A DNA stretch of 32,710 nt from Nitrospiraceae bacterium (GTDB taxonomy: Bacteria > Nitrospirota > Thermodesulfovibrionia > Thermodesulfovibrionales > Dissulfurispiraceae): positions 1-32,710 of the forward strand of contig JAAYUK010000123.1 of assembly GCA_012517735.1 (NCBI GenBank). The letters run 5' to 3'. Position 1 is the stretch's first letter; every line of letters begins with the position of its first letter. Made by a program: the position numbers and the translations under genes. A model generated the notes under the pieces. The model was not told where the DNA came from. It ran no database searches and saw only the letters and a program-made list of their open reading frames with translations. Of this stretch, positions 11,102 through 14,552 are shown piece after piece.

Positions 11102-11142
11102 AAAAGGCCCCTGAAGAAAAGCTTACGCTTCAGGGGCCTTTT
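11102..11142. terminator. Bidirectional terminator between pilC and pilR
   Basis: A perfect 15-bp inverted repeat (AAAAGGCCCCTGAAG at 11102-11116 and its complement at 11128-11142, 11-base loop) has A/T runs on both sides, so it can terminate both convergent transcripts. Its right arm also encodes the last residues of PilR (KAPEA). Confidence 0.88.
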
Positions 11143-12469
11143 GTTTCGCCAGCCGGTATCTGAACTCCCGGAAAGTCAGACCAAGCAGCTCTGCTGCCTT
11201 GGTTTTGTTTCCTTTGGTCATGGCAAGCGCCCGGTGCAAATACGAACGCTCCATTTCCGCAAGAAATTCATCAAGAGAAAAACCACTGGACGGCAATTCT
11301 GCGGCACCACTGCTTGCCAAGGGCTGTGGAGGCATGTCTGACCGCCTCAGCACGCCTCCTTCAGAAAGAATGACCTCACGTTCGATCAGGTTCTTGAGTT
11401 CACGGACATTGCCGCGCAGTTCATGATGCACGATAAAATCCATAAAACTGGGGTCGATACGTTCAATTCTCTTTTCAAACTTTTGAGCAAAGAACTTCAC
11501 AAAATGATTCACCAGTAACGGGATATCCTCACGACGCTCGCGCAGTGATGGCAATGTCAGTTCAAACGTAGCGAGTCGATAAAAGAGATCTTCCCGGAAG
11601 TCTCCCTTGGCAAGCAGCTCGGTAACCAGACGGTTTGTCGCAGCAATCACCCGCACATCAACATCCCGCTCCACCCCGCTCCCGAGCGGCCGGATTTTCT
11701 TATCTTCGAGAAATCGGAGCAGTTTTGCCTGCAACCCCAGCGGCATTTCGCCAATCTCATCCAGAAAAAGCGTTCCCCTGTGCGCCTCTTCAATCAAGCC
11801 ACGCTTGGTCGTATACGCCCCCGTAAAAGCACCCTTCGCATAGCCGAACAGTTCGCTTTCGAGCAGTTCGCCCGGCAGACTCGCACAGTTAATCGCAATC
11901 ATGGGCTCAGCCCCACGGCGGCTTTTCTCATGAATAGCCTTTGCCACCAGTTCTTTGCCCGTGCCGCTCTCGCCGATAATAAGCACATTGGAATCAAACG
12001 GCGCTATCTTGTCGATCACGGCAAAGACCCGCCGCATCGCGTCAGATTTGCCGATGAGGCTCTGATATTCATCCGCATACTGTTGAAGGGTTCGTACCTT
12101 TTTTTCGAGCTGCAGACGCTCGACAACATTCCGGACGACCATTCTGATTTCGTCAATATTGAACGGTTTTGTCATGTAATCAAGAGCTCCGGCTTTCATC
12201 GCCTCAATCGCTGTTTCAGCCGTTGCAAAGGCAGTAACCATCAATACTACCGTAGCGGACCGCTCCTCTTTGAGTGCCCGCAACACATCAATACCCGATC
12301 CGTCAGGCAGCCGCATATCGACAATCGCAAGATCATAAATGTTAGTTTTCGCTGCCTCCAGAGCATCCACAACAGTGGAGACCGTATCAACCACAGGTAT
12401 CTGTTCAAGCAGCAACCGCTTCAGGACCTTTCTGATATTTGGCTCGTCATCGACAATCAGTGCTCTCAT
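11123..12469 (-). CDS. pilR: Sigma-54-dependent response regulator, PilR-like
   Basis: NtrC-class activator of 448 residues: receiver domain (1-115) with phospho-acceptor Asp51 and Lys101, AAA+ domain with Walker A GESGTGKE (166-173), the sigma-54 contact loop GAFTGA (213-218) and Walker B LFLDEIG (234-240), then a C-terminal Fis-type HTH (KTKAAELLGLTFREFRYRL). The start at 12469 is chosen because GGAGGAG lies just upstream and MRALIVDDE is a normal receiver N-terminus; the frame extends to 12532 inside pilS. Only one base separates it from the pilS stop. Between pilC and the pilin, with a sigma-54 site ahead of the pilin, it is most likely the pilin activator. Confidence 0.93.
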   Translation of the reverse strand: MRALIVDDEPNIRKVLKRLLLEQIPVVDTVSTVVDALEAAKTNIYDLAIVDMRLPDGSGIDVLRALKEERSATVVLMVTAFATAETAIEAMKAGALDYMTKPFNIDEIRMVVRNVVERLQLEKKVRTLQQYADEYQSLIGKSDAMRRVFAVIDKIAPFDSNVLIIGESGTGKELVAKAIHEKSRRGAEPMIAINCASLPGELLESELFGYAKGAFTGAYTTKRGLIEEAHRGTLFLDEIGEMPLGLQAKLLRFLEDKKIRPLGSGVERDVDVRVIAATNRLVTELLAKGDFREDLFYRLATFELTLPSLRERREDIPLLVNHFVKFFAQKFEKRIERIDPSFMDFIVHHELRGNVRELKNLIEREVILSEGGVLRRSDMPPQPLASSGAAELPSSGFSLDEFLAEMERSYLHRALAMTKGNKTKAAELLGLTFREFRYRLAKQKAPEA

Positions 12470-12470
12470 C

Positions 12471-13640
12471 TCACTCCTCCACCGGCAATATGACGGAACA
12501 TCGTGCTCCCCCCAATCTGATAGCATCATCAAACATGATCAATCCCTGATATCCAGTGACTATCCGATAGGCAATAGCAAGACCAAGACCGGTTCCTTTC
12601 GGCTTTGTCGTCACAAACGGTTCAAAAATCCGATCACGATCATTCACCGGGATACCGGGGCCATCGTCTTCCACCTCGATCAGCACCCGTTTCCCCGTAT
12701 CGCCGGTGGCGTCCGGCAGCATCCTCACTGATACCGTAACCTCCACCCGCGATTGAGCTGCTTCCAAGGCATTTTTGATCACATTCATGAATACCACTTC
12801 CAGGAAGGTCCGGTTGGCACGAACGAGACCATCCTCAATCACCTCGACAGTATAGTGTTTGTCGCTGAAAGGCAGACCGAGACTTTCAATGACCTTCCGA
12901 ACAGAAAGCAGATCTGTCGGCGCTTCCGAAGGTCGTGAGTAAATCAGAAAATCCTCAACAAGCCGTGACAAGCGCTCAGTTTCTGCCCTCAACATCTCGA
13001 CCAGTTCAGGATCGCAGCTGCCCTCACGAAGAAACTGCACGGATGCGGAGATCGAAGCAAGCGGGTTGCGCAATTCATGTGCAAGATCGGCACTGACCCG
13101 GAAAAGTCGCTCATACCCCTGCATGCGGGCACGCTCTTCTTCAAGACGTCTGATATACACATCCTGACGTTCAATGCGCTCCTTCAATCCATGTCCGGCA
13201 AGCGTAATCACAAAAAATGCAAACCCGTGCAATGCCGGATCCAGCAATGCCCCTTGTTCAGTTCTCCCTCCATATATGTATACAACAGTTGCATACAAAG
13301 CGATTGCAACGGTCGGGAACAAAAAACTGCGGCGCGTACTGATAACCAGTGACGAGAAAAAGATCGGGAAGAGGTAGATCAGTGTCAGAAATGACGAGAG
13401 CCGGAAGGTGAGATATACCACTGCAGTGACAAAGACAATATCGAACAGAAAATCGAAATAGTTGATCTTCTGCGCTGAAGTAACCAGACGAATAAACACA
13501 ATGAACACGTATATCAGGACAACCCATAAAAGACGCGGGCTGGCGGTAAGAAAACCGGTCATCTGAAGCGGCAGCAACAGAGCAAGGCCAAACAGCAACC
13601 TGCCAACCATGTAATAATTGAATAAAAGCTTTATGTACAT
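12471..13640 (-). CDS. pilS: Membrane sensor histidine kinase, PilS-like
   Basis: Sensor kinase of 389 residues, partner of the downstream PilR. The N-terminal third has six hydrophobic spans (about 11-31, 37-53, 64-81, 84-100, 106-124, 138-152), as in PilS. A charged, helical linker (153-180) leads to the dimerisation box SADLAHELRNPLASI with His188, then an HATPase domain with NVIKNALEAA (N box), DDGPGIP (G1) and GTGLGLA (G2). Only about 35 residues separate the last span from the H box, so the PAS domain known in Pseudomonas PilS appears to be missing. No Shine-Dalgarno site precedes the ATG at 13640; a promoter-like pair predicts an almost leaderless mRNA. Divergent from the pilin. Confidence 0.92.
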   Translation of the reverse strand: MYIKLLFNYYMVGRLLFGLALLLPLQMTGFLTASPRLLWVVLIYVFIVFIRLVTSAQKINYFDFLFDIVFVTAVVYLTFRLSSFLTLIYLFPIFFSSLVISTRRSFLFPTVAIALYATVVYIYGGRTEQGALLDPALHGFAFFVITLAGHGLKERIERQDVYIRRLEEERARMQGYERLFRVSADLAHELRNPLASISASVQFLREGSCDPELVEMLRAETERLSRLVEDFLIYSRPSEAPTDLLSVRKVIESLGLPFSDKHYTVEVIEDGLVRANRTFLEVVFMNVIKNALEAAQSRVEVTVSVRMLPDATGDTGKRVLIEVEDDGPGIPVNDRDRIFEPFVTTKPKGTGLGLAIAYRIVTGYQGLIMFDDAIRLGGARCSVILPVEE

Positions 13641-13646
13641 GGCTAA

Positions 13647-13675
13647 AGCTTAATGTATGTGACGATTTTTGTCAA
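13647..13675 (-). promoter_or_regulatory. Possible pilS-pilR promoter
   Basis: On the minus strand a perfect TTGACA (13675-13670) is 17 bases from TAAGCT (13652-13647). The -10 is weak, and the predicted start falls at or next to the pilS ATG (13640). The -35 lies inside the palindrome at 13658-13699, so a protein bound there would affect this promoter. Confidence 0.4.
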
Positions 13676-13699
13676 CCTTGACTGACAAAATATGTCACA
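13658..13699. promoter_or_regulatory. TGTCA-rich palindrome, candidate PilR binding region
   Basis: Two 17-base arms (13658-13674 and 13683-13699) match as an inverted repeat at 14 of 17 positions, separated by 8 bases. Each arm has an outer TGTGAC and an inner TTTTGTCA in opposite orientation; a further GTCAA-CC-TTGAC palindrome sits at 13671-13682. From memory of the family, Pseudomonas PilR binds repeated TGTC-type motifs upstream of the pilin promoter. Relative to the sigma-54 start point expected near 13797, the sites lie at about -98 to -139, the normal distance for an enhancer. Binding itself is inferred. Confidence 0.6.
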
Positions 13700-13770
13700 A
13701 AACAGAATAACCATCTCGATTCATTCAACTTTATCTTTGTTTTTCAATGATCATCAGAAAAGTTGCAGGA

Positions 13771-13786
13771 TGGTATGCAATGTGCT
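13771..13786 (+). promoter_or_regulatory. Sigma-54 (-24/-12) promoter of the pilin
   Basis: TGGTATGCAATGTGCT has the invariant GG (13772-13773) and GC (13784-13785) separated by exactly 10 bases, and matches TGGCAC-N5-TTGCW at most positions. It lies 115 bases ahead of the pilin start, on the pilin strand, next to a gene for a GAFTGA-containing activator. A leader of about 100 bases is expected; within it GGTGAG (13818-13823) and CTCACC (13847-13852) could form a stem. Confidence 0.72.
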
Positions 13787-13900
13787 ATGATTGAAGTCGT
13801 AAATTCTGGGAACAGGAGGTGAGAGGATTTCGGTTTCCGGAGCCGGCTCACCGGCAGGTGAATATGGAGCAGTACTACACCAACCAAAAGGAGGCAACGC

Positions 13901-14128
13901 ATGTTTCAAGCAATCCACAAAATGAGAAAGGGTGACCAGAAGGGGTTCACGCTCGTCGAGCTTCTGGTTGTTGTCGCGATCATCGCCATTCTGGCAGCTA
14001 TCGCAATCCCGCAGTTCTCCGAGTATCGCAAGAAAGCCTACAACTCAGCGGCGGAGAGCGATCTGAGAAACTTCAAGACTGCCATGGAAGCCGCGTATGT
14101 AGATTCCCAGCAGTATCCGGCACTTTAA
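13901..14128 (+). CDS. pilA: Short type IVa pilin, e-pilin-like PilA
   Basis: Prepilin of 75 residues with a 15-residue leader ending in Gly, cleaved before Phe1 of the mature protein ([13 protein letters not shown], with Glu5). The mature pilin is only 60 residues: essentially the N-terminal helix with no globular C-terminal domain, as in Geobacter sulfurreducens PilA. The shared segments [20 protein letters not shown] and [10 protein letters not shown] are unmistakable. Aromatic residues are Phe1, Phe24, Tyr27, Tyr32, Phe43, Tyr51 and Tyr57; six of these positions are aromatic in the Geobacter protein, and Phe43 is extra. AAGGAGG precedes the start, and a second Met at residue 8 could give a shorter preprotein. 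Conductivity is not proven by sequence. The next gene, 17 bases on, is its probable partner. Confidence 0.94.
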
Positions 14129-14145
14129 TTAGGGAGGACATGGAT

Positions 14146-14493
14146 ATGAAAAAAGCATTCATTGTAATCATGGTCATAGCTTTCTCTCTGGTATCTTCAA
14201 TGGCATTTGCAGCTTCTATTACGCAGGCAACTACCCTTGGTCTTATTCCGTATTCACCGTCCGCCAAAGTAGGCGTTTCGGCTGCCTCTGCTAACCTTTC
14301 ATACTGTGCAGCTTCCTGCCATGTCTCCGGTTCGTTCCAGTACGGAACATGTGGCGGTTCCGGCATTACCGGCACGTACAATGATACCGCCAAGATCTAC
14401 AAAGGCACCATTCCGACCCAGGACGCCAATGCGACTGTCTGCGCACCGACAAGTCAGACTTCCGCTACGTCACTCTCTGGTACTTTTCAGTAA
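14146..14493 (+). CDS. Small secreted protein, PilA-C/Spc-like pilin partner
   Basis: Protein of 115 residues with a clear signal peptide (about 1-22, ending SSMAFA). The mature part is small, Ser/Thr/Gly/Ala-rich and predicted beta, with Cys54, Cys58, Cys69 and Cys99, probably forming disulfides. The start at 14146 is preferred over the in-frame ATG at 14140 because GGAGG (14133-14137) is then 8 bases away rather than 2. In Geobacter the gene directly after the short pilin encodes the pilin's missing globular part (PilA-C, Spc). Position, size, signal peptide and a pattern of spaced Tyr/Gly/His residues (YCAASCHVSG, QYGTC, AKIYKG) suggest the same role here. Similarity is judged by eye, so this is inference. 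CAASCH is CX3CH, not the standard CX2CH heme motif. Confidence 0.6.
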   Translation: MKKAFIVIMVIAFSLVSSMAFAASITQATTLGLIPYSPSAKVGVSAASANLSYCAASCHVSGSFQYGTCGGSGITGTYNDTAKIYKGTIPTQDANATVCAPTSQTSATSLSGTFQ

Positions 14494-14516: not shown

Positions 14517-14552
14517 GAGAGAGGGTTGACAGCCGTCAACCCTCTCTCTTTT
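14517..14552 (+). terminator. Terminator after the pilin pair
   Basis: A perfect 14-bp stem (GAGAGAGGGTTGAC with its complement, 4-base loop AGCC) is followed by a T-rich tract (CTTTT). It ends the sigma-54 pilin transcript, and the next gene starts only 10 bases later, so the export cluster depends on read-through or an internal promoter. Leaky termination would keep pilin expression well above the cluster's. Confidence 0.88.

Follow-up and report, generated by a model that had tools for sequence, protein, structure and literature searches.

Two tandem dyads as a candidate PilR enhancer between the divergent pilSR and pilA genes of a Nitrospirota family

In a stretch of 32,710 nucleotides (hereafter the window), which is one contig (C162) of a 2.7-Mb draft genome from the Nitrospirota, the pilSR operon and the major pilin gene pilA diverge from an intergenic stretch in which two tandem 15-bp dyads, TGACA-N5-TGTCA, very likely form an enhancer for the response regulator PilR. 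Judged by its sequence, the element is likely to serve as a PilR upstream activating sequence common to two divergent promoters, through which pilA would be switched on via sigma-54 and the sigma-70 promoter of pilSR would be occluded.

Both members of the regulatory pair are encoded leftward. The sensor histidine kinase PilS (12471–13640, − strand) carries HisKA and HATPase_c domains and a weak 6TM_PilS domain, which at 25.4 bits lies slightly below the cut-off of 27 in the domain search, and PilR (11123–12469, − strand) is an NtrC-type sigma-54 response regulator with Response_reg, Sigma54_activat (including GAFTGA) and Fis-type HTH_8 domains; a linked regulator with receiver, GAFTGA AAA+ and Fis-type helix-turn-helix domains, together with a PilS-like kinase, is what one expects beside a PilR-dependent pilin enhancer. 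Rightward, across 301 bp of intergenic DNA, lies pilA (13901–14128, + strand), encoding a 75-aa major pilin of the short geopilin type whose top PDB matches (7tgg, 2m7g and 9egp) are Geobacter pilin structures. It is followed directly 3′ by a gene for a predicted secreted protein of 117 aa (14140–14493, + strand), a possible partner of the short pilin, and a hairpin resembling an intrinsic terminator (14517–14548, + strand) follows the pilA operon. Among the family genomes, a short geopilin and a 117-aa cysteine-containing secreted protein co-occur only in G000 and G016 (C272), which suggests a two-gene pilin module resembling the PilA-N/PilA-C split of Geobacter; the other family members inspected have longer pilins. 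At the left end of the window a phage-type integrase gene (204–1391) adjoins genes for tRNA-Glu and tRNA-Gln (1408–1563, − strand), as is typical of the end of an integrated element. A search of the window for known RNA families, the pilA leader included, returned two tRNAs and nothing else.

Upstream of the major pilin gene stands a GG-N10-GC box of the sigma-54 −24/−12 type, TGGTATGCAATGTGC (13771–13785, + strand), with an expected start at about 13797; relatives show TGGCA-N8-GC forms of this box. The predicted pilA leader (13797–13900, + strand, 104 nt) has a Shine-Dalgarno sequence before the ATG and a hairpin, GCCGG-CTCA-CCGGC, at 13842–13855. Hairpins with the consensus TCCGCC-NTT-GGCGGA, to which that of the window is similarly placed, occur in G014, G018, G019, G007, G016, G005, G017b, G021, G012, G022, G024 and G025, with compensatory changes in 4 of the 6 pairs and 97% of cells paired; the leader hairpin may stabilise or regulate the pilin mRNA, or may be a dispersed repeat. 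No convincing IHF site was found in the loop between dyads and promoter of the window, and IHF-assisted looping was rejected as a conserved part of the system because the best candidate there has three mismatches, despite perfect matches in three relatives (G018, G016 and G010).

The candidate enhancer lies in a 42-bp inverted repeat (13658–13699) whose 17-nt arms (13658–13674 and 13683–13699) are complementary at 14 of 17 positions and separated by an 8-nt gap. The better reading of the repeat is as a pair of adjoining 15-bp dyads and not as a single 42-bp palindrome: candidate PilR site 1, TGACGATTTTTGTCA (13660–13674, + strand), is proximal to pilS, and candidate PilR site 2, TGACAAAATATGTCA (13683–13697, + strand), is proximal to pilA and begins 88 bp before the −24 box, with 23 bp between the two centres. 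On this analysis the long 17+8+17 symmetry arises because two self-palindromic sites are placed side by side. An earlier reading made from the letters of the window (the sequence-only reading) had correctly proposed the sigma-54 promoter upstream of pilA, and had further taken the 17+8+17 symmetry as a functional unit of unusual regularity. The latter finds no support among relatives, in which the 15-bp dyad is constant and the spacing is rigid within dyads and variable between them; the 42-bp palindrome was rejected as a functional unit on this ground. Strict and relaxed scans of the window's genome for a wide PilR regulon revealed no further dyad accompanied by a convincing sigma-54 promoter, and the strict double dyad (TGAC-N6-TGTCA twice) has a single occurrence in the 2.7 Mb. 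A CRP-like reading of the TGTGAC/GTCACA boxes was rejected, the outer boxes being about 30 bp apart and not 6. A direct repeat, AAAGCTTTATGTA / AAAGCTTAATGTA, with copies 20 bp apart (13625–13657), covers the start codon and −10 region of pilS.

We compared the regions upstream of pilS in those genomes of the family that have a PilR orthologue. The dyad pair adjoins pilS in 19 genomes of the family, the window's genome counted, with site 1 in the same position; the genomes are related, several are fragmented, and counts across the family are not independent events. Half-sites are spaced by 5 bp inside every dyad of the 19 genomes, and the distance between dyad centres ranges from 22 to 35 bp (mostly 22–24 bp, with two genomes at 32 or 35 bp). 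From site 2 to the −24 box there are 85–89 bp in 13 of the 16 promoters with two sites (outliers at 76, 79 and 100 bp), and the recognition sites are conserved at about 80–150 bp upstream of the start, as expected of a PilR-dependent enhancer. The remote enhancer of TGTCA boxes envisaged by the sequence-only reading is thus present, in the form of two dyads, and the conservation upstream of pilA in related genomes whose absence had been named beforehand as refuting it was found. Genomes with other arrangements were also seen: in G025 pilSR adjoins another gene and has no dyads at pilS, and a dyad pair is found elsewhere, 89 bp ahead of the sigma-54 box of a major pilin; G017 has a duplicate pilA promoter with its own dyad pair; G024 has a single dyad at the pilin; and in G003 neither a major pilin nor dyads at pilS were found. 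A scan of 31 family genomes for a dyad followed at 55–85 bp by a sigma-54 box retrieved pilA promoters, and the remaining inspected matches lie inside coding sequence.

Site 1 also contributes to a second promoter. The −35 box of a sigma-70-type pilS promoter, TTGACA (− strand, 13675–13670), which had been placed inside the repeat from the outset, is made up of the right half of site 1 and a single flanking base, and the −10 box, TAAGCT (13647–13652, − strand), follows at 17 bp; this −10 is weak in the window (3/6) and of the TAnACT type in relatives. TTGACA with a −10 after 17 bp is found at site 1 in 17/19 genomes and at site 2 in 0/19, so that the enhancer overlaps the sigma-70 promoter of the activator gene itself, as in circuits of the PspF/XylR type. 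The flanking base completing TTGACA is present at 17 of the 19 pilS-adjacent sites versus 3 of the 25 other sites (Fisher p about 3e-7, a value that overstates the independent evidence since the genomes are related). G001, a member of the window's genus, differs in that its −35, TTGGCA, is drawn from the opposite half of site 1 and is 18 bp from TAGAAT. In most genomes the pilS ATG falls 5–10 nt after the −10 (6 nt in the window, farther off in G013), so that the pilS mRNA probably begins at or next to its start codon and is leaderless. No Shine-Dalgarno sequence was seen before the pilS ATG of the window, and the N-terminus of PilS is conserved as M-Y-x-x-x-F-N-Y-Y.

From the sequence grammar, conservation, spacing and linkage described above we infer the following course of events. 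PilR dimers would bind the two tandem dyads, assemble and loop to sigma-54 RNA polymerase at 13771–13785, which would turn the pilin operon on. PilR on site 1 would at the same time mask the −35 of pilS together with much of the spacer and exclude sigma-70 polymerase; since site 1 holds these elements, bound PilR should repress pilSR, and the overlap of −35 and operator suggests this sign of autoregulation. If the pilS mRNA is leaderless, start codon, −10, −35 and enhancer would be packed into about 60 bp. A paper cited in PMC7962754 states in its title that unphosphorylated PilR regulates pilA in G. sulfurreducens, which bears on the phosphorylation state needed. Whether one may go further and speak of a homeostatic pilin switch hard-wired in this Nitrospirota family appears to us evenly balanced; in such a switch one PilR operator would fire pilA via sigma-54 and shut off pilSR, which would be transcribed without a leader from a promoter whose −35 is half the operator, and sensor, regulator and pilin would be tied into a single loop set by the occupancy of about 40 bp.

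Alternatively, the PilR enhancer might serve pilA only, the overlap with the pilS −35 being tolerated as PilR is too scarce or is outcompeted by polymerase. We consider this unlikely, although the dyads remain with pilA where pilSR lies elsewhere (G025 and G024), which does mark activation as the core role. The base completing TTGACA is retained at the pilS-adjacent sites and the −10 keeps a constant distance of 17 bp, both of which argue against mere tolerance, as does the persistence of the pilS-side dyads in four genomes in which a gene intervenes between them and pilA (L041/G006, L040/G026, L033/G030 and L048/G022); there the dyads may have a role independent of pilA. The intervening reading frames of G006, G026 and G030 resemble one another, and that of G022 is of a different kind, similar to a nucleotidyltransferase (both kinds were named by eye); G006 has an additional dyad beside the displaced pilA.

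Recognition of the inner arms by another activator or repressor, for instance of the FleQ/FlrA type (GTCA-N6-TGAC) or another NtrC-family paralogue, is more doubtful still. The PilR query has at least 28 matches in the genome, mostly paralogous sigma-54 activators, and because of these another activator could bind the dyads; FlrA/FleQ-like sites, yGTCA-N6-TGACr, have moreover been described (PMC4641369). The fixed spacing of a FleQ/FlrA-type operator is nevertheless not what we observe, since the inner spacing TGTCA-N-TGACA ranges from 7 to 20 among relatives, whereas TGACA-N5-TGTCA is constant, and the site co-occurs with pilR and pilA and matches the regions upstream of pilA in Geobacteraceae. 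As the dyads follow the pilin gene and also occur before Geobacteraceae pilA, PilR is by far the likeliest ligand. It is scarcely credible that chance or a structural role (as a cruciform or terminator-like element) accounts for the inverted repeat: although 17-nt inverted repeats of such quality do arise by chance in a window of 32.7 kb (0.76 expected, and present in 36% of windows simulated under Markov-1), one falls within the 301-bp intergenic stretch in 0.8% of cases by simulation, the strict double dyad appeared in 0 of 200 simulated Markov windows, and its position is conserved in the 19 genomes.

Outside the family, the identical dyad is found before pilA in Geobacter sp. OR-1, in another Geobacteraceae MAG and in Desulfuromusa, and further Desulfuromonadales have close variants before pilA, in some cases followed 7 bp on by another dyad that is half-conserved; none was seen before pilA of Geobacter sp. 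GAC1. A divergent layout outside the family was rejected, as in five other families the closest homologues of PilR follow pilC-type and pilS-type genes. Since neither dyads nor a divergent pilin were found at these homologues in the five families, the divergent layout seems specific to the family studied here, and the recognition sequence seems older or shared. In a Myxococcota MAG (L112, − strand) three directly repeated TGAC-N6-TGTCA dyads, one every 16 bp, precede a sigma-54-like box and a pilin located at about 1532, which suggests that the dyad is in wider use. The sharp candidate PilR consensus of two TGACA-N5-TGTCA dyads appears to be valid across Nitrospirota and Desulfuromonadota, and should therefore allow pilin regulons to be predicted for uncultured bacteria, among them ones that have Geobacter-type short pilins. 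A further prediction is a specific feedback, the repression of pilSR by PilR.

Each element of the proposed circuit has precedents. At glnA/glnL, tandem dyads bound by NtrC act both as a sigma-54 enhancer and as an operator for a sigma-70 promoter. NtrC belongs to the same class of response regulators as PilR, and the case differs in dyad sequence, in its co-directional layout and in its role in nitrogen regulation. In pspF-pspA, xylR-Pu/Pr and norR-norVW, a divergently encoded sigma-54 activator has an enhancer that overlaps its own promoter and is subject to negative autoregulation. The proposed PilR circuit comes closest to those of PspF and XylR, and PspF is documented to limit its own expression by negative feedback (PMC7229158). 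PspF, XylR and NorR are not two-component regulators of pilins, however, whereas the operon that is presumably co-repressed here includes the gene for the sensor kinase, and the pilS transcript appears to lack a leader.

The PilS/PilR-RpoN systems of pilA in Pseudomonas aeruginosa, Geobacter sulfurreducens and Myxococcus xanthus share with the present locus a sigma-54 pilin promoter, an NtrC-type PilR and upstream boxes containing TGTC. A similar site model for PilR of G. sulfurreducens may already be contained in Krushkal 2010. That study and Jin 1994 are both cited in PMC6058289. In G. sulfurreducens pilA is reportedly under the control of PilR and RpoN, and pilR of Geobacter immediately precedes pilA in the same orientation (PMC2725144), whereas pilSR is divergent here and its sigma-70 promoter is built into the candidate PilR site. 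We found no report in the searchable literature of a sigma-70 promoter built into a PilR site or of repression of pilSR by PilR. Among the parts, PilR, the sigma-54 promoter of the pilin gene and an enhancer that overlaps the promoter of its own activator are all known. Judged by the searchable literature, what is new is their combination for PilR, the family-wide conservation, the clear consensus for the dyad and a pilS transcript that is probably leaderless; the arrangement adds a further example to a known class of circuit rather than founding a class of its own.
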